Source of the DNA: Hyaloscypha bicolor E
Lineage: Eukaryota > Ascomycota > Leotiomycetes > Helotiales > Hyaloscyphaceae
Assembly (NCBI RefSeq): GCF_002865645.1
Contig: NW_020194517.1
Span: forward strand, 1,612,001-1,676,000
Reading direction: 5' to 3'
Length of the DNA stretch: 64,000 nt
Positions 3,309-64,000 of the stretch are shown one piece after another. A program made the translations under genes and the position numbers. Below the pieces are notes generated by a model. That model did no database searches. It was not told the DNA's origin and worked only from the letters and a program-made list of their open reading frames with translations. The first letter of the stretch is position 1, and every line of letters starts with the position of its first letter.

Positions 3309-3331
3309 AGGTTGGGTCGTGCCTTTATTTA

Positions 3332-3475
3332 TCCCTTCGTCCGCCATGAACTATCCACGCTAGCAGGGGGGGTGTGGCTGCACGCAAGCCTCTTGAATTG
3401 GAACGAAGCGAGGTGAGGCTTGCGTGCAGCCACACCCCCCCTGCTAGCGTGGACAGTTCATGGCGGACGAAGGGA
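3332..3475. mobile_element. MITE, 144-bp near-perfect palindrome flanked by TA
   Basis: Two 61-bp arms, differing at a single position, are separated by a 22-bp loop. The ends are TCCCTTCGTCC and GGACGAAGGGA, bordered by TA on both sides (3330-3331 and 3476-3477), as expected for a TA target-site duplication of Tc1/mariner-type elements. It has no coding capacity, so it would need a transposase supplied elsewhere. The near identity of the arms suggests recent mobility. Confidence 0.85.
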
Positions 3476-3610
3476 TAGAAACCGCGCGACAGCCTCATAA
3501 ATTCTAAGTGAGGCTGCGCTAGGCTACGCTGGCAGCAGATTTCCTCCGCCTAACACATTATCGAACACGAATTTCTGAACCACTTTGCAGCAGTTGTAGG
3601 ACGGTGCAGC

Positions 3611-5215
3611 ATGGTATCCAGAAGGCCGAGATCGTCTCGCCAGCCAGACGCAACCAAACATGACACCGTTCAGGCGAGCAGTCCAGCTTCCATGTCCTTG
3701 ACACCTACTGACGGCCTCTCAGAGACCAGCGAAGAAACGACGCACTGGAACAAGGAACGACGCTCCGCTAGAGTCCTTGGAGCCGACCGCTGATTCCAAC
3801 AAGTCACAATGGACTACATATCGAGTGAGCCCAATACCGAATACCTACAACGCAACCTCCTTCCACGACGCTCTTCGTATCAGTCTTCGGCTCGAATCAC
3901 ATACAACATTGACCATCCACTCCTTCGGTTCGGACTGGTCGCAGCAGAGAACCGCAACGATCACATTCAGCGACACTCCTTCCGGGCTATACTCAGTTGG
4001 GGTTGATGATGTCTGCGGCAAGACAACAGAATGGAAGGTGAACATTGTTCATCCATTGTCTACACAAACCGACACTGTGTGCATTGATACACACTTTAAG
4101 GGTTTTACACCTGTTTCCCCGCTTGCTAATGACGAGGAACATTTGATTGAGTACGTTGCTCGGTGTAAATTGAGAACGTTTGCTGATCTATAGTCACAGC
4201 TGTTATTGCGCTATACATGCGCTGGGGAAGTCATGCGCTTGGAGGATTCAAGCCCATAATGATACTTACATGGTGGCTTCGGAGATTCCCTGGCCAAAGG
4301 ACCTTCCTCGATTACGGGTATTCATATACGGATACGCATGTGATTTGACCACGGCCGAATCGATCAGTGGGGTTGATGATTACGCAGATACCGCTTAGGC
4401 GGGCTGCTTAGGAACAGGCGGGGTCCAAGAACAAGGTAGGAGCACCTCGATTCGCCTGCATGCCGTCGCTGACCCACGAAGACCGGTCCTCCAGTACCCC
4501 TGGTGTTCATTGCTCACCAGCCTTGGTGGCATAGTCCTCAAACAGTATGTAGGTTTATCCATCGCAACAAATCATTCGTTTTCTTGGCTTAACTGTCGGA
4601 AAGGCACGTTTTATACGGATGTCATGAAGGAAGAGTTCTGATGAGTTTTGGTCACGTTCTAATTTACAATTTGATTCTAGTTCTATGTGGAGTCCTTTGT
4701 TTTCGGTCTTGTGCCCATGCCAAGGCTTATGTATACCCGCGAAGCAGTGGCTTTGGCTGTTATTTTGTGTCGGAGTACAACCCTCACACGATAATCGGAT
4801 TTGTCTCTCTTGCTTCGACCAATAGAGGTGTGGCCATCGTATGTTCTACGTGTGCCGTCACCACCCAGATCACGAGATTGCTGTAAACGTGATGGCTGCT
4901 TGTGATCTATCCAAAGACTCAAAAATCATTCCAGTTCTTTGAAACGAGGAAGACGTCTACGTCATTGAGGGTAGCGTCGGCTACTTGGTGTCGTCTGTAA
5001 TCGATAACTTAATAAAACAACGACCCAGTTGCAAAGAAGTGGACTCGTGGCTGAGTCGACAACGTTGGCCGTCCAATCACCTGCGTCAGCAACACTTCGG
5101 TCCGCCACTGCGAAAACTCGGAATCGGATTATCAAAGTGGTCTATTGACGCGGATCATAGCGAATGGTGGAATTTTCCCAGCATTTGATCAAGACGGCTA
5201 TATAGGAACCGGCCC
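3611..5215 (+). pseudogene. Decayed SERAC1-like alpha/beta-hydrolase, N-terminal part of an NLR-type receptor
   Basis: Fragments in three frames match, in order, the fungal SERAC1-like effector domain. Residues around 4080-4150 read CIDTHFKGFTPVSPL. At 4225-4340 HALGGFKP and DLPRLRVFIYGY lie in alternating frames. At 4501-4545 LVFIAH and SLGGIVLKQ are split by a one-base insertion inside the nucleophile elbow (GHSLGG type). At about 5150-5205 ADHSE and FDQDGYI are split by a frame change. At 5233-5290 MTVTETELQH resembles the conserved end of a NACHT module. Several frameshifts and stops make this a pseudogene. The order hydrolase then NACHT then ankyrin fits the downstream ankyrin sequence. 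The NACHT P-loop is not seen and may be deleted or in the gap. Confidence 0.7.
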
Positions 5216-5336
5216 GAGATGAACTACGAACGGTTTGCAGAAGCGCAAGCCTATGACTGTAACAGAAACAGAGCTCCAGCATAGAATCTCATAAAGAATA
5301 ACCGTATCATCCGGCACGACCAATAAGTGCAAATCT

Positions 5337-6270
5337 NNNNNNNNNNNNNNNNNNNNNNNNNNNNNNNNNNNNNNNNNNNNNNNNNNNNNNNNNNNNNNNN
5401 NNNNNNNNNNNNNNNNNNNNNNNNNNNNNNNNNNNNNNNNNNNNNNNNNNNNNNNNNNNNNNNNNNNNNNNNNNNNNNNNNNNNNNNNNNNNNNNNNNNN
5501 NNNNNNNNNNNNNNNNNNNNNNNNNNNNNNNNNNNNNNNNNNNNNNNNNNNNNNNNNNNNNNNNNNNNNNNNNNNNNNNNNNNNNNNNNNNNNNNNNNNN
5601 NNNNNNNNNNNNNNNNNNNNNNNNNNNNNNNNNNNNNNNNNNNNNNNNNNNNNNNNNNNNNNNNNNNNNNNNNNNNNNNNNNNNNNNNNNNNNNNNNNNN
5701 NNNNNNNNNNNNNNNNNNNNNNNNNNNNNNNNNNNNNNNNNNNNNNNNNNNNNNNNNNNNNNNNNNNNNNNNNNNNNNNNNNNNNNNNNNNNNNNNNNNN
5801 NNNNNNNNNNNNNNNNNNNNNNNNNNNNNNNNNNNNNNNNNNNNNNNNNNNNNNNNNNNNNNNNNNNNNNNNNNNNNNNNNNNNNNNNNNNNNNNNNNNN
5901 NNNNNNNNNNNNNNNNNNNNNNNNNNNNNNNNNNNNNNNNNNNNNNNNNNNNNNNNNNNNNNNNNNNNNNNNNNNNNNNNNNNNNNNNNNNNNNNNNNNN
6001 NNNNNNNNNNNNNNNNNNNNNNNNNNNNNNNNNNNNNNNNNNNNNNNNNNNNNNNNNNNNNNNNNNNNNNNNNNNNNNNNNNNNNNNNNNNNNNNNNNNN
6101 NNNNNNNNNNNNNNNNNNNNNNNNNNNNNNNNNNNNNNNNNNNNNNNNNNNNNNNNNNNNNNNNNNNNNNNNNNNNNNNNNNNNNNNNNNNNNNNNNNNN
6201 NNNNNNNNNNNNNNNNNNNNNNNNNNNNNNNNNNNNNNNNNNNNNNNNNNNNNNNNNNNNNNNNNNNNNN
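5337..6270. other. Assembly gap, 934 N
   Basis: An unbroken run of N. Frames that appear to cross it are meaningless. Confidence 0.99.
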
Positions 6271-7800
6271 ATGTATGCCGTCGAACTTCTCGTAACGGCA
6301 TCATAGGCGGAACTCGTAACTGAAGCCGAAATAATAGCTCCTCCTCGACATGCCAACGAAATAACGGGGGTTTACGCCGTCGAACTTCTCGCAACGGCAT
6401 AGGAGGCGGAACTCGTAACTGAAGCCGAAATAATAGCTCCTCCTCGACATGCCAACGAACTAACGGGGGTTTACGCCGTCGAACTTCTCGCAACGGCATA
6501 GGAGGCGGAACTCGTAACTGAAGCCGAAATAATAGCTCCTCGTCGACATGTTAATGAACTATCGGGGGTATACGCCGCCGAACTTCTCGTAACGGCATAG
6601 GAGGCGGAACTCGTAATTGCAGTCGAAATAATAGCTCCTCCTCGACATGCCAACGAAATAACGGGGGTTTACGCCGTCGAACTTCTCGCAACGGCATAGG
6701 AGGCGGAACTCGTAACTGAAGCCGAAATAATAGCTCCTCCTCGACATGCCAACGAACTAACGGGGGTATACGCCGCCGAACTTCTCGTAACGGCATAGGA
6801 GGCGGAACTCGTAATTGCAGTCGAAACAACAGTTCTTCGTCGACGTGATAACGAGATGAGGGAAAACGTCGTCGCGGTACATTTCGCAAAGGTCAAAAAG
6901 GCCAGACAAACAACTGCAGACGTGGGAATTATTCATCGTTAGGTTGATAAGGAAGTACGGGCAACCGACGACGAGCGAGATCACGACACGTAAACGACAA
7001 TAAAAGACGAAGTTTTTGTCGGGGACGTAGTTCGTCACGAAACTGCTGAAAACGTACCGGGGTTGCTCTACGTACCACCTCACGAGCCAAAGGTAGTGGT
7101 AGGTAAACAAGTTCTAGTCCCCCACAGTTATCGTTTGGGAGATATTGCGAGTTTTCTGGGCGTGGCCTCCGTTACACCTCGTACCAACTTCTAAAGAGTC
7201 CAACGGCAAGTCTCATCACCAATAGTAGTTCCTTAAGTATTTTAGACTGGGTTACTAGGTCGTATGAACCTATCATGACTGACATTGCATCTTCTATTAG
7301 GACACCTTGGGGAGCACAGAGTCGGAAAAGCCGCACATTCTTGGTTCTAGAACGTTGTATTAGGTGCTTGCCCTCGAACCAGAACTCTCTAAATCGTAGT
7401 TTAAGCAAGCTCAGCCGTTAAGAGTACATTAAACGTGTTTATTCGCTGTTGACTACTACCGGAACAGGTTAACCTAGAGGTCTTCAGAACAGCTTCTTAG
7501 CTTCGGGTAGAGCATCCTTCTTCAGTAACTGTCTAACCACTTACTTGACATGCTAGACTAGGAGGGGTACGGCGAACCTAAGATACTCCGGAGGTCTGTT
7601 CGATTGCTAAGCAGAGTGGTAGTGTAGCATACCAGCGTTAAGGCCAAGACGTTCTCTCCTAGGGCCCGGTTCATAGAGACAAGGAGCATCTGAGTACCGC
7701 TTCGTGTAGAGACAGTGCCAGTTCCCGGCGAGCCGCTCTGTATGGGTAGAGTACTCCGCATACCGAAGGCCCATTATAAAAAACATCTACTGAAAGGAAT
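6271..7800. other. Segment written in reverse (not reverse-complement): NACHT C-terminus plus ankyrin repeats
   Basis: As written, neither strand makes sense. Read from 7798 down to 6271 with bases NOT complemented, one frame is open for 509 codons with no stop. In order it gives VCLAERPLTVTEMCFAM, QIVQFIHQSVNDFFL and CANYMRIADSNEFD (typical after a NACHT domain), then ankyrin repeats: STMLHIASGAGLLSVIE, NRALHHASRWGHAKVV, KCTALERAAANGHEGIV, TGNALHGAAAKGSRAIV, and six nearly identical 99-bp units such as GNALQAAAFGGNQATV. The repeat phase is exact: units begin at 6277, 6376, 6475, 6574, 6673 and 6772. The same repeat occurs in normal orientation just after the block (7804 onward). DNA cannot be reversed this way by any known rearrangement, so the natural reading is a data-handling or gap-closure artefact next to the N gap. 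Confidence 0.93.
6277..6870. repeat. Six 99-bp tandem repeats (33-aa ankyrin unit, backward text)
   Basis: The period is exactly 99 bp and the units are almost identical. Differences fall at a few codons (for example GAA/GAC giving E/D, and AAA/CAA). Read 3' to 5' uncomplemented, each is one ankyrin repeat ending LLLDNKAEVNAQ. Highly similar repeats that vary at few positions are typical of fungal NLR ligand-sensing domains. Confidence 0.9.
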
Positions 7801-7803
7801 CCT

Positions 7804-8075
7804 GGGGGCAATAAAGCAACCGTACAGCTCCTCCTCGATAATAAAGCCGAAGTCAATGCTCAAGGCGGAGTCTATGGTAATGCTCTTCAAGCTGCTAGAT
7901 CTCGGGGCCATCAAGCAATCGTGCAACTCCTCCTCGATAGTAACAAGGCCAGTGCTCAAGCCGGGTAATATAGCAATGATCTCCAAGCCACAGCATGTCA
8001 GCGCCGCACATATCGCCGACAGAACCTCTCTGGTAACTGTCGCAGGTGCAGAATGCGCTCTCTCTGAAGCATAAA
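7804..8075 (+). pseudogene. Ankyrin repeat fragment in normal orientation, decaying
   Basis: Starting at about 7804 the plus strand encodes GGNKATVQLLLDNK, GNALQAARSRGHQAIV and QLLLDSNKAS, i.e. two ankyrin repeats nearly identical to the backward block. It then meets a stop at about 7963 and degenerates (YSNDLQATACQ) with frame changes. It is probably the 3' end of the same receptor gene as the 3611-5215 fragment. If the backward block and the gap were flipped into place, hydrolase, NACHT end and ankyrins would be collinear on the plus strand. Confidence 0.75.
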
Positions 8076-8246
8076 TTGGGTGCTCCGGAGGAGCTTATAT
8101 AGTGGTGAAACATGCCCAGGAGCTAAGCCACTGAACACGTGTGATCGGCACGCAGAGGGCAGTAGGGGGGGCCCATATGCCATGCAACAGTAACCTTACT
8201 ATACTATACAGTTGTGTAGACTCAAATCAATTGAGTGTTGCATTAG

Positions 8247-8606
8247 CTGTGCCTCGTGGAACAAGTTCTCAGCCACGAACGTGATTCAACGACGGAGGGA
8301 GATTTGTTGAAACTGGCCAAAGAAATAGTTACAGGCATTGCTAAGTGGTTCCATTATAAGCAGATGACTATCAACAGGACCCTGGACACTGTCGCACACT
8401 TACGAAGTAGTATGAAGTTTGAGACCCACGGAAGCTCTCGAGCAAAGCCTCTTGGGTCAGTCGTAGTGCGGAGTCCAGTTGGCTTGGTTGACGGGTTCGG
8501 GAATCAGTACAGGCAGTACCGCAATCTCGTCTTCTGGACAGAAAGAAAGAGAGACGAAGGATTTATTGATGAGTGGTGGGATGAAGAGGTGCAAATCGGG
8601 CGATAG
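8247..8606 (+). pseudogene. Open frame without ATG, possible 3' remnant of the receptor locus
   Basis: The frame is open from 8247 to a stop at 8604-8606 and reads like protein (LLKLAKEIVTGIAKWFHY, GFIDEWWDEEVQIG). It has no ATG near its beginning. No family is recognised. Its position just after the ankyrin fragment makes a detached C-terminal exon possible; a chance frame is the alternative. Confidence 0.3.
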
Positions 8607-9205
8607 CTAGACTGACATGGCAAACGCTGAAATCAGCACAGAACCTGAAAAATGCGAGCCAGACACAATCGACCCAGCATTCAAGAAGCTGAGGCCGACA
8701 GTCTGTGTTCCTCGCGAAAGAAATTTTGGTGTGAAATTCCATAACAAGTTGCGGGACAACTCGCTTTCCCCGACTAGAGGGAAAGGCCCCTTTAGCGCGA
8801 CGTACGTCCGACCATCAGTTCCACGTTTTCGAATCAAAAGACGAAAAGGGGATCGGCAATCGCTTAATGTGGGGTAATTGCGGGGACCAGCCAAGTGCGC
8901 CAAATTTCCTGTTCGTCTGACAAATCTCTCTGGTCCCTGCGCTGTAAATCCGCTATATGGTGGTATTCAACAGGTACTACTCATGTCTATTTTAGGGGAA
9001 GTGAATGGAAAACAGCATCCCTTTCACAAGACTTTCGCGACTTCAGATCTACGCTTTCTTGCAGTCGCCCCAAGTAGGGTCAATACGCTTCTTCGTCTGT
9101 TCACAAGATCTGTCGATCGTCAACTTTTCAAAGCCCCGCGATGGGGTCATTGCTAGGAAAGGACCTCGGAGCATTTTTTCTCCAGGATCGAACGCTGGGC
9201 TGCTG
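8607..9205. other. Non-coding or unrecognised
   Basis: Several overlapping short frames occur on both strands; none has codon or domain support. Confidence 0.4.
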
Positions 9206-57600: not shown

Positions 57601-58780
57601 TCCCCAAGCTCTTTACTCACTCTCTTCTTCACTCTCTTCTTCACTCTCACTTTCCCATTTGAAGCTAGTAATTATGGCTACCTTTAGTGGTTTGTTTGAC
57701 TTCCCTGATTTATCAGATAACTAATCAGAGCTCTCCTCTCCTCCTAATTCCTCTGATTCAGACGAATTAGCCTGCAGCGTAGCTACTGAAGATAAAGAGG
57801 ATGCCTAGTATAATTTACTATCTGATTCAGAAGATAAAGACAATAATTCGATTATACCAAGCCTTACCCTCCCTTTTTGTCCTTCTATAGCTATTTCCAT
57901 AGCTTTTACTATACCCGATATTATATGCAAAGAGCATTTCACTAGTACTAGAATCAAGGCTATTTATATGCTTGAGCAAAGACGATCTGCAGGTAATATT
58001 AAGAAAGCTATAGGAGTATCCAGAACTCGTATTTATAAGCTTGCAAGCCTTACTAGGTAGTATAGATAGAGAGAGTATAAGAATATACCTCTGGAAATCT
58101 CTCATATACTTAATTAACCTCGTTCTAGTAGGCGAGTAATCTTGCCTATTATAATCAAGTATATCTTGCAAATAGTACTTTAAAATTCGACTACTCGTGG
58201 TTTCTCCTATATTATTATTATAAAAAAAGTAAGGAAAAGAGATTATAAGATTGCCTTCCGGATAGTTTAGAAAGTTCTTATAGTAGCTAGCTATTCCTAG
58301 TATAAACTAATATTAAAGCCTGGTTTAAATAAGTTTAGTAAAAAAGAGAGGCTAGACTAGTATTTGAAATACGAGTATTAGAGTTTTAGAGATTAGAAAA
58401 ATATAATTTTTTATAGACAAAATAGTAATATAATTAGGTAATATATAAGGGTATAAGGCATGTAATAGCAGGGTAATATATAAGTAGTTAAGGTAAGTAA
58501 ACTATAGAGTAATACTTGCAAGTATAACTAATTCTAATAAAAGACTAATTAATACTCCTTTCTAAAGCTAGGAGCGTCTCCCTATATATTCCCTAGTATT
58601 TAGCCAAGCCTATAAAGTACTTTATTTAACTAGGAAATATAATCCTATATAATTTATATAATTTCAATTACTTATATAATTCTAATTATAAGCTTTACCT
58701 AAAATAGGAAACTAGATCTATAATATCTAATACTTATTTATATACTATTATATATATCTATTATATTAACTTTTCCTCTG
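57600..58780 (+). mobile_element. Decayed Tc1/mariner-type transposon
   Basis: An ATG at 57674 opens a frame (MATFSGLFDFPDLSDN) broken by TAG codons of the kind expected where CAG or TGG stood. Further on, IKAIYMLEQRRSAGNIKKAIGVSRTRIYKL is helix-turn-helix-like. The later, stop-filled frame retains an RD-stop-KNIIF stretch, the position of the DWK.V.F.DE catalytic block. Base composition drops sharply to AT from about 58,050. C-to-T type changes and loss of CpG point to RIP. Element ends are not defined. Confidence 0.6.
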
Positions 58781-60200
58781 GGCTCTTATTCCCAAGAGGC
58801 CTAAAAGAACTATAAATAGCTTTATAAATAATTCCCTAAAACCTTTCTAGCTATTAGTTCTCTCTAAAGACTTCCCATAATTACCCTATTATTATACCAG
58901 GTAATAGACTTGAGAATATAGTTTATTAATCCTGCCTAGCTAATTTGTAAATTACCTTTAGTAATTCTCTCTTATAAAAATAATATAAAAATAATATATA
59001 TTATTAGACAGGAAGCTTTTCTGGTCTTCTAATTAGTTTATAAATTCTAACTTAGCCTCTATTTATAAATAAATTATTATTCTATAGGCCTAAGAACTTG
59101 GAAAAGTTAATCCGATTTTCTAGTTTATTTATAAATCTCTTCTTTAGAATTTTCTAGGTATTCCTAGTATAAAGCCGGTTCCGAATTCATAATTACTATT
59201 TAGGAAAAAAGTATTATAAAAAGGCCTTTTTTTTCCTACTAACTAATCTTTCCTTTCCTTAATTATAACACTATACCTAGCTTTTCCTTGTCCCTTGCCT
59301 TCTTTCTTTAAGCCTTTTTTAAGCTTCTTTAAGCTTCTTTAAACTTTATTTAAGCTTTATTTAAGTTCTTTTCTAATTTCCTCTTTTATTTCTTATCTAT
59401 TAAGATAAATACTTCTCTTAGTATTTATTAGCCTATTACTATCTATTTAGCTAATACTTCTATATCCTTAATTTATTCTTACTACTTTTAATATTCCAAG
59501 AATATTACTAAGTTTCCCGACCTTATTTATATTAAGAATAATAATTACTCGGTATATAATTATTATTATTCTAAAAATAAGAAATATAATTTTATAAGTT
59601 ATAATTTCCTTTATTTATTTCCTATTCTAATATTATTTAAGGTTCCTTAAATATATATAATATAATTAAACCGCCTTTTTTAAGCTATTAATATATATAA
59701 GTATCTTTCCTATTTTTTATCTAAAAAAAAGAAGGCTATTATTACTTTTTTTCTATATTAAATAATATATATTTCTTATATTAAAGCTATTATTCGAGGC
59801 TAACGAATTCCTCTAATAATCTAAGAAATAGATTAAGTAATTCTTATTAGCTTAATATAAATATAAAGTATTCTTAATAATATAATTAATATTCTTTAAT
59901 ATTAAATAAACTTACTTTTTCCTTATTTCTTACTAATAACTAATAACTTTATAGGCTAATTTACTATTTATTTCTCGAGAGAATCCTAATAAGAATAATA
60001 ATAAGAATAATAGAAAATAGTTATAAAAATAGGATATTTATAAAATATAAAAATTAGAATTTTTAAAGTTTTTAATAATTTTTATATAGTTTTTTTAAGA
60101 ATAAATATATAGTTTTTAATAGTTTCCTAATAAAAGTATTTATCTTTTATATTTTTATTTAGCTAATAGTATTATAATATTACTCTTTTCTAAATATTCT
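58780..60200. other. AT-rich RIP-type sequence, identity unclear
   Basis: More than 75% A+T with a stop in every frame every few codons. It probably contains the long terminal repeat and downstream end of the Gypsy element, but I could not find the repeat boundary because its partner lies outside the window. Confidence 0.4.
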
Positions 60201-63200
60201 TATAATTCTTAAGCTATATTCTCTAGATTACTTAGTAATTCCTATATATTATTTACTAGTAAATAGCTTTTCTAATAAATAAGATATTTTCTTTCTTTTT
60301 TACTTTTCTTATAAACTATAATAGATTCTATCTCGAATTCTTTTTTACCCTTAATCTTAACTAGTTCTAGTTCTATTATAGTACTAGCTTGCGAGTATTA
60401 TAATTCTAAGAAAGAAATATAAAAAATATTATAAATCTAATATAATAGTAATAATTTTAAATAATATATTTATTTATATATTTTTATAATTTCTAGAACT
60501 TTAAAAAAGCCAAGATATCTATTTACTAGCTTTATATTAGGTTATAGCTATTAAATATTCTTTATATAAAGTATAACTTTATTATATATATTAAACTTCT
60601 TATTAATATATTTCTTATTATAGTACTTTTTCTATATATTTACTACTTCTTATTATTATTTCTCTAGTACCTCCTATTTTACTTAAATCCTCTATATTCT
60701 TTCCTATATTACTAGTATTTCTTTTTCTGAAATATTATCCTTAATATATAATTTAATACTAGAATAGAATTCATATAATATATAAAATAAAGAACTTCTT
60801 ATTATTAAATATATAAAGTTATTATATATGAATTCTATAAAAGTAAGCTTTATTACCTAGTTATTTTACTAGTAGCTAGTATAGTACCTTAAGTACTATT
60901 CTAGAGTTTGGTTTAGATTTTTTATTTATTTATTAGTTTATAAATAAAATACTATATTTAGCTATTATTAAACCTTTAAGTAAAAATATAGATTTAACTA
61001 GAACTTACTTATAAAAATAGATTCTTTATTAAAGGTTATATTTGCAAATATACTAAAGTCTTTAATAATATAATATATAAATAGCTCTACTAATTCAGGA
61101 GCCGAGATTTCCTTAGTAATTAAAATATATTATACTATTTTTATATATTTATTAATAATAATAAATATAGAATTATATATCTTATTATAAAACCTAGAAA
61201 AAAGCAGTCCTATAATAAAGTCTATAGTAATTTCTTATTATAGCTTAAAGAAAAGGAGAAATAAACTAAATATACTATATAGTAAATATCTTTTTACCTT
61301 AGTTTATTAATATATAAGGCAAGTTCTAATATAGTTTTTTATATTCTTTTTTATATTTTACTAGAAGTACTTTTTTTAGAAAATCTTTAGTATTTTACTA
61401 GTATTAAAATACCTATTTATAGGATTATTATAGTTAGCTTATAATAATTCTTCTTTAAGAGCTAGCTTATTTAGTATATAAATAGTACCCTAATATCTTA
61501 ATAACCCAGATATATTAAGTTCCCAAGTCTTAATAGCTCTAATAAAGGTTTTTTTTAAGAACTATTTATATTACTAGTATTATATTAATAAATCAAGCCT
61601 TTAGTACTATAATAGTAATTTAAATAGTATCTCTTTATCTTTCTTATATATTATTTCAGACCTAGCTACCTATATAGCTAGAATTCATAATATATACTAT
61701 TTATAACTAGTTATATTAGTAATAGGCTCAAGTAATAATATTTCTAATATTATTTTATTACTAAAATAAACTTCTCTTTCGGAATTCCTTAGTATTTTAC
61801 TAATTAAGGAATACTTACTTTCTTTTTTCTGGGCCTTAAATTATAGTATTATAGAAATAGTATAATATCTTATTATTACTATTTATAGGGCTCTCTATTC
61901 TATATTCTATAGCTTATTATAAAATATAAGTAATAAAGTATTTTTATTTATACCTATTATAACATCTGGCCTTTTTAATAGCCTATTAGTAGAATTACTA
62001 TATTCCGGCTAATATTTTAAGATAAAATTAAAAATAGCTAGCTTTTTTACCTATCTTATTTATTAACTATTTAGTTTTCTCTTAGTTATAAAATATTTCA
62101 AGTTATTATAATCTATTTTAATAATAATAATATATTAGGTATATACTAGGTAATATTACTAAATATAAAATACTAAAATAATAGCTAAGAGCTCAGAATT
62201 ATATATCTTATACTTATTTTTAATTATAATTATTTTCTTTAAATAAAAAGTAATAAGATATTACCTAGCTTCTACTTTCTTACTAAAAAGCTAAGAAATT
62301 ATATTTATAATTATAAATCCTAAAATATCCGTTTTTATATAAATCTTTAAGGCTAAATTAAAATAATAAAGAATTAGTACTATTATAAATATAATTTATA
62401 GCTTCTTAAAAGCCCTATCTACCTTATCTATTTAGCTAAAATAATATTATAAGTTCTTACTAGTTTTTAATAAATTAGTTAATTCTTTTACTATTCTAAA
62501 GTATTTATAAATAAATCTCTAGTAGAAATTAGTAAAACCCAGAAATACTTAGACTTTTTAGATATTATTCTTTAGGGCCGGCTATTTTCTAATAGCTATA
62601 ATTCTATTAATTTCTATTTCCATATTATCTAGGCTAATTATAAACCCCAAGAACTTTATTTTCTTTATATTAAACTTATATTTTACTAAGTTTATAAAAA
62701 GCTAGTATTATTATAATTACTTAAATATTATTCTGGGTTCTCTAAATAAATTAAAATATTATTTAGATAAACTATATAAATAATATCTATAAGGCTTATT
62801 AGTATATAATTAATATATACCTAAAATATTACTAGAGTATTAAATAGTCTAAAAAATATAATATAATATTTAAAATATTTATAATATATTTAAAATATTA
62901 TTTTCTACTTATTACTTTCTTATATTTATAACTAATAATAAGTATTCTTTAAATCTAGCTTTATATATATCTTTATTTTATAAAGCCTATCTATAGTCTT
63001 ACTAATAAGTAATAATAGTATTTAGTTCTTAATAGTAATCTTATTTAGATTCCGGTAATTAATATATAAATATAGGCTACCTCCTTTTTTTAGAATAAAT
63101 ATAATTAGGGTACTAGCTAGGCTAGTAAAATAATAAATTCATTTCTTTTTTAGGCTAGTATTAAGATATTTCTAAAGAATTTTAAGCTTTCTTTCTAATA

Positions 63201-64000
63201 AAATATATATAAAACTATATAGTAATTAAGACCCTAGTTCCAGATTTATATAATACTTTATTATATAATAGTTAGGTAATATACCTATAGCCTCTATAGA
63301 AAATATTTAGAAAAGGTTATAATACTTTTTAGGAAATATAGCTATTCTATTAATAGTAATAGTAGTAATTCTTTAGCTATCCGTTATAGAATAAGTAATT
63401 AATAGAAAAACATATATCTTATACTTTATTATTTTAGTAAATTTCCTAGTATTTAGAACTTTAATCTTCTATAATTAAATCTAGTATTTTTATATTACTT
63501 TCCTAAAGAAAATTAGGGAATTAATCTAATAAAACTATAGGAATTCAAGTATTATATTAATATAATTTAGATTAAAATTATATAATATAAAGTATATATT
63601 AGTCTTTTTTTAGTTCCCTAGTATATTCTTAATAATAATACTAAGAATATAATTTTTATATAAATAAATTCTTCTTTTCTCTAGTAAGAATAAGAAAGTT
63701 ACTCTTAATATTAATAAAATACTTATATCTAAAGCTAATTTCCTCTTTATATAATTAGCCTCTATACCTGAGTTTGCTAATACTCTAACTCTTTACTTAT
63801 CTTTTATTATCTTAATAGTAACCTTAATTACTATTCTTATTTTAGGGGCCTTGCTTTTTATAATATAAATAAATATAATTATTATAAGATATATCCGTTT
63901 CCTGGCTTCTTTAATTCTAGATACTTATATACTTTATAGCCAGACTTATTATAATTATAATAAGTCGGTTTCCCTTAATTAGGGCAAGTAGTAATATAAT
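60200..64000 (-). mobile_element. Decayed Ty3/Gypsy LTR retrotransposon, incomplete at right edge
   Basis: Read leftward, domains appear in the order gag zinc knuckle, reverse transcriptase, RNase H, integrase, i.e. Gypsy order. The zinc knuckle (about 63,880-63,970) is recognisable with Cys and His codons turned to Tyr. The reverse transcriptase keeps IVYLNNILIY at about 62,750-62,780, where the catalytic YLDD has become YLNN, followed by KKIKFLGFIIS and VFLGFTNFY. The integrase region (about 60,700-61,150) keeps LNQTLE and RYYTSY. Dozens of stops, mostly at former Trp, Gln and Arg codons, show it is dead. The 5' LTR lies beyond 64,000. Confidence 0.82.
62758..62769 (-). other. Mutated reverse transcriptase active site (YLDD to YLNN)
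   Basis: Codons read TAT CTA AAT AAT on the minus strand. GAT to AAT at both Asp positions is the G-to-A change expected from RIP acting on the opposite strand. Confidence 0.7.

Follow-up and report, generated by a model that had tools for sequence, protein, structure and literature searches.

A letter-reversed block beside an N gap in Hyaloscypha bicolor E, very likely a one-sided gap fill set down backward

Can an assembly hold a coding sequence that becomes legible only when its letters are read from right to left without complementing? The question is raised by a block at 6271–7803 of the window, the 64-kb stretch of DNA analyzed here, which corresponds to C3:1612001–1676000 in the 82.0-Mb, 76-contig assembly of Hyaloscypha bicolor E. 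Our analysis indicates that the block is not a biological feature and that, very likely, a gap was filled here from one side with letters in reversed order.

Reading frames and ankyrin repeats of the block

When the letters of 6271–7803 were reversed without complementing, an open frame of 510 codons appeared (window 7801 to 6272), which grows to 542 codons if it is extended into the flank. The reverse-only frame claimed in the initial annotation was thus confirmed, although the edge of the block lies at 7803 and not at 7798 or 7800. As written, the block has longest frames of only 104 and 118 codons, and none on either strand exceeds 118. Among 1000 dinucleotide-preserving shuffles of the reversed block, the longest frame averaged 104 codons and reached at most 228. 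Elsewhere in the window, the next longest reverse-only frame has 292 codons and the longest complement-only frame has 451. Because long unnatural frames also occur elsewhere in the window, frame length alone is no proof of mirror writing.

The Pfam analysis of the backward reading revealed ankyrin repeats in five stretches (Ank_2, 3.5e-53), as the initial annotation had proposed. The mirror-written 99-bp repeat units (family D1, spacing 99) occupy 6271–6953 and, like the block as a whole, are assigned to neither strand. The array continues in the ordinary direction on the plus strand at 7804–7968, where it ends at a TAA stop codon (7966–7968), and the same repeat, already noticed to the right of the block, was found forward at 7802–7844 and 7901–7943. 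The first ~200 residues of the backward reading gave no Pfam match at 0.001; they are placed between NACHT and the ankyrin repeats and align with several paralogs from the same genome. A structure comparison of the repeat part returned ankyrin and designed-repeat chains among the best 60 of 413 sequences at 0.001, and these matches to solved structures add nothing to the Pfam result.

A right-order copy on C1

A protein search of the organism's own genome with the translated reversed text (303 residues), a check suggested in the initial annotation, scored 130 of 400 candidates and yielded at least 141 matches. Among those listed, C1:200894–201787 stood first, with 100% identity over residues 6–303, and none of the 141 listed matches falls inside the block itself. 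At the DNA level, the backward text of the block aligned to C1:200895–202435 with 0 mismatches and seven indels; the two agree fully over the first 1,200 letters of the alignment, and the indels are confined to the final part in the repeat array (the last ~300 bp). The reversed block and a 10-kb stretch of C1 have 1178 of 1235 distinct 20-mers in common, and the corresponding count is 0 of 1235 for the block as written, reverse-complemented, or complemented. Likewise, global alignment to the C1 copy scored at best 3026 for the reversed text versus −585 as written, −567 for the reverse complement, and −487 for the complement. The block is C1:200895–202435 in reverse letter order, uncomplemented. 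At the level of sequence, we regard this right-order copy in the same assembly as the decisive evidence for the reversal.

The copy also bears on whether the backward reading could have arisen by chance, if a stop-free 99-bp tandem repeat happened to resemble ankyrin repeats in one unnatural frame. Tandem repeats do lengthen stop-free frames, and the complement-only reading of the repeat part of the block is open as well, for 203 codons. This explanation is refuted, however, by the half of the block that precedes the repeats, which equals reversed C1 too, throughout the difference-free start of the alignment, and its probability is vanishingly small. Both the limit reached by the shuffles and the gulf between the alignment scores uphold the earlier judgment that a chance origin is negligible.

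A chromosomal inversion would likewise present a segment of changed direction between unchanged flanks. However, an inversion produces the reverse complement, whereas the block is reversed and not complemented, as the scores of −567 and 3026 demonstrate. It might still be supposed that the molecule truly holds letter-reversed DNA made by some unknown process, and the text of the assembly does read so. That text is all that speaks for such DNA, while the product of an inversion has none of its 20-mers in common with C1, and the block matches C1 without a mismatch directly beside an N gap. We therefore consider truly mirror-written DNA exceedingly improbable.

The C1 copy has an open frame of 739 amino acids, in which Pfam identified NPHP3_N/NACHT (6.8e-28 and 2.9e-07, respectively) followed by ankyrin repeats. 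STAND proteins that combine NACHT with ankyrin repeats are NLR-like receptors in fungi. Compared with such NACHT–ankyrin genes, the NACHT-type NTPase domain was found in the C1 copy only, the ankyrin array of the window block emerges only when it is read backward, and the window copy, unlike them, has no readable gene in the block. The initial annotation had placed a NACHT region inside the block, a claim that did not hold: Pfam found no NACHT or NPHP3_N domain in the backward reading, and in the C1 copy the domain lies upstream, in a part that is N in the window. As written, the C3 block gives no clue to a function, and gene models there should not be trusted. Moreover, 6900–7400 as written had itself as its sole match in the genome (one match), so that the searched part of the block, matching nothing else, would pass for orphan DNA.

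Flanks, N gap, and probable origin of the block

Both sides of the block are written in the ordinary direction on the plus strand. The left flank (3328–5336) matches C1 from 197957 onward with insertion-biased noise; blastn aligned 3328–5295 to C1:197957–199791 at 89.7%, and the last 41 bases (5296–5336) align only loosely, up to about position 3836 of L014, a 10-kb stretch of C1. The right flank (7804–9090) matches C1:202436–203740 at 93.7% (blastn, window 7805–9090). It picks up at C1:202436, the base after the end of the block, and is exact there but for one additional G within a G run. Beyond window 7803, nothing further of C1 was matched in mirror order. In global alignments to C1, the left flank showed 36 mismatches, with 86 gaps in C1 and 8 in the text of the window, and the right flank showed 21 mismatches, with 17 and 31 gaps, respectively; the blastn alignments contained 63 mismatches and 71 gap openings on the left and 28 mismatches and 42 gap openings on the right. 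With the flanks agreeing with a single C1 locus as ordinarily written, the reversal is limited to the block, and its position is correct.

Between the left flank and the block lies a run of 934 N (5337–6270), the only one in the window. The left flank stops ~1,059 bp before the start of the block in C1, a figure that is approximate because of the loosely aligning last 41 bases, and the N run stands for this part of C1 with its NACHT/NPHP3_N coding portion. The N run and the block together amount to 2,467 bp (934 N plus 1,533), or ~95% of the C1 span of ~2,600 bp. The filled text touches the right edge of the gap and the N remain at the left, which is the anatomy of a one-sided partial closure, and a single C1 locus is collinear with the flanks and with the fill once reversed, implying that the filled text belongs here. 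We also considered a joint reversal of the N run and the block, in which case the gap would fall within the ankyrin array. This was rejected, as the stretch that is missing precedes the block in C1, and the gapless meeting of the block end with the right flank speaks against it as well.

Taken with the mismatch-free right-order copy, the collinear flanks and this anatomy support the initial proposal of an assembly or gap-filling fault beside the N gap. We put the probability at roughly 93% that the block is an assembly artefact in which the gap was partially closed from its right edge with fill in reverse letter order. A NACHT–ankyrin gene on C3 would have been interrupted by a scaffold gap of apparently ~2,467 bp. 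A gap-closing or contig-extension step would then have extended leftward with clean sequence from the right edge only, leaving the remainder as N, and the filled piece would have been set down letter-reversed without complementing. Whereas the reversal, the right-order copy, the placement, and the adjacent gap are shown directly, we infer both a gap closer as the agent and the nature of the slip. A single programming slip would suffice: bases gathered on a leftward walk may have been put down in the order of the walk, or a piece from the minus strand may have been complemented and left unreversed.

Alternatively, some other step, such as format conversion, polishing, or manual finishing, could have reversed, or only complemented, a piece of a contig or a read, with the N gap unrelated. 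Simply reversing a string at any point of the pipeline would yield the same text, and the contrast between a clean block and noisy flanks points to probably different data sources. However, the block fills precisely the space from the N run to the collinear right flank and ends within one base of the C1 continuation. Moreover, the N run and the fill account for nearly the whole C1 span, whereas a chance reversal need not end at a gap edge. An origin in such a step is thus improbable beside a reversed one-sided fill.

In Perl, reverse called in list context leaves a string unreversed. LR_Gapcloser, which is written in Perl and shell, applies to its type 3 gaps the rule that, where reads are found at one boundary, the gap is filled from there and the remaining N equal the gap length minus the fill length, according to the text of its description (PMC6324547). 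This closure resembles the present case in having fill at one edge and leftover N at the opposite one, so that the rule of one gap closer would produce such an anatomy. A reversed letter order, as in our block, is however not described for this rule, and the word "reverse" does not occur in the main text of that article (PMC6324547); the main text of the DENTIST article likewise contains neither "reverse" nor "complement" (PMC8848313). According to a 2024 evaluation, gap closing with several long-read programs brings in errors and misassemblies (PMC10815858). Phrase searches for a published account of such a slip gave no title pointing to one, and the phrases "reversed but not complemented" and "reverse but not complement" were met once each, in text from PMC8920891 and PMC2206014, respectively.

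As for the source of the fill, the block matches C1 without a mismatch, its frame stays open where the C1 frame ends, and its flanks are noisy, suggesting that it was probably filled from clean data other than those of the flanks. Copying from the text of the C1 contig is unlikely in view of the indels near the end of the alignment and the frame that ends in C1 and continues in the block. Judged by these differences, the block probably derives from cleaner, independent data. As reads cannot map to mirror-written text, the block would not have been polished in place.

Orientation statistics, recurrence, and neighboring features

The orientation of the text was scored in bins of the window and of 22 sampled 10-kb stretches (L014–L035). 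K-mer models trained on window sequence placed bins 7001 and 6501 ahead of all others among 112 bins as the most strongly reversed pair, for every k in the range 2–6. Composition-matched, leave-one-bin-out models took over from a composition-blind model, and the same two bins ranked first and third of 423 normal-GC bins. Seven of the 423 normal-GC bins scored below −8, as did two of the 51 middle bins (L021 9001 and L028 4001), and there was no negative score among the 91 AT-rich bins. At least two of the seven normal-GC bins lie in the block and at least four outside it, the six lowest being 7001 and 6501 of the window, 7501 and 501 of L026, 6001 of L035, and 1001 of L033; bin 7501–8000, of which the block makes up ~60%, is not among the six. 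The orientation test is therefore unspecific: it supports mirror writing but does not prove it. A second model, trained on normal-GC text, scored AT-rich bins as reversed, with values below −8 in 104 of 440 bins outside the window and 15 of 125 inside it; it was rejected as a composition effect.

At the other low-scoring loci (L021, L026, L028, L033, and L035), the reverse-only frame never exceeds the longest natural one, and they were thus not read as mirror-written. In L026 (C3:1–10000), where bins 501 and 7501 score reversed, the longest reverse-only frame has 199 codons versus 337 for the natural one. Across the sample, the reverse-only frame was no longer than the longest natural frame in 21 of the 22 stretches; the exception, L022, is AT-rich (GC 0.23) and has no long frames (117 codons reverse-only versus 80 natural). 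All sampled stretches come from C1 and C3, two of the 76 contigs, and they contain 0 N runs, hence no other gap. In this sample, as in a genome search with the letter-reversed text of one dispersed repeat (3328–3481), no second example emerged. Being small, drawn from two contigs, and free of any other gap, this sample says nothing on other gaps.

It is conceivable, though rather doubtful, that a gap-closing program mirror-writes one class of one-sided fills and that many public assemblies carry such blocks beside N gaps. If the fault did recur, the blocks would escape ordinary searches, which cover the plus strand and its reverse complement, and a scan in mirror order beside N gaps would be a cheap quality test for public genomes. 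The block has no biological meaning, but it illustrates cleanly a kind of assembly error to which ordinary searches are blind. Gene models and claims of orphan sequence beside partly filled gaps should be checked in all four orientations of the text.

Other features of the locus were also noted. The block and its flanks belong to a 5.8-kb unit present on two contigs, at window 3328–9090 and C1:197957–203740 (L014 1958–7741). Indel-rich differences are typical of unpolished long reads. Such differences between the two copies outside the block point to two options, a single locus that was assembled twice or an unpolished recent duplication; with multi-mapping reads, a genuine recent duplication would show the same indel-rich look. 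At L014 7741–7770, the homology to the window stops at a run of more than 20 A, with other DNA beyond, and the tail of a retroelement or a join made in assembly may account for this. At its left end, the unit is bounded by the outer edge of a ~150-bp element (3328–3481) that matches its own reverse complement at 88% and recurs dozens of times across the genome; searched as ordinarily written, the element gave 86 rows over the two strands, and its letter-reversed text gave 0 matches in the genome. On the minus strand at 350–2266, adjacent open frames encode a HET domain (1391–2266) and an NB-ARC/NACHT domain (350–1381), which perhaps form one HET–NLR gene. At the far end of the window, an AT-rich tract (58001–64000; GC 16–27% in 1-kb bins) adjoins DNA of ~46–50% GC and looks like a RIP-affected repeat region. 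Together with the HET, NB-ARC/NACHT, and ankyrin genes, such AT-rich sequence is suggestive of a filamentous fungus. Finally, 8032–8193 is a dispersed repeat with some two dozen partial matches of 76–92% identity elsewhere in the genome.
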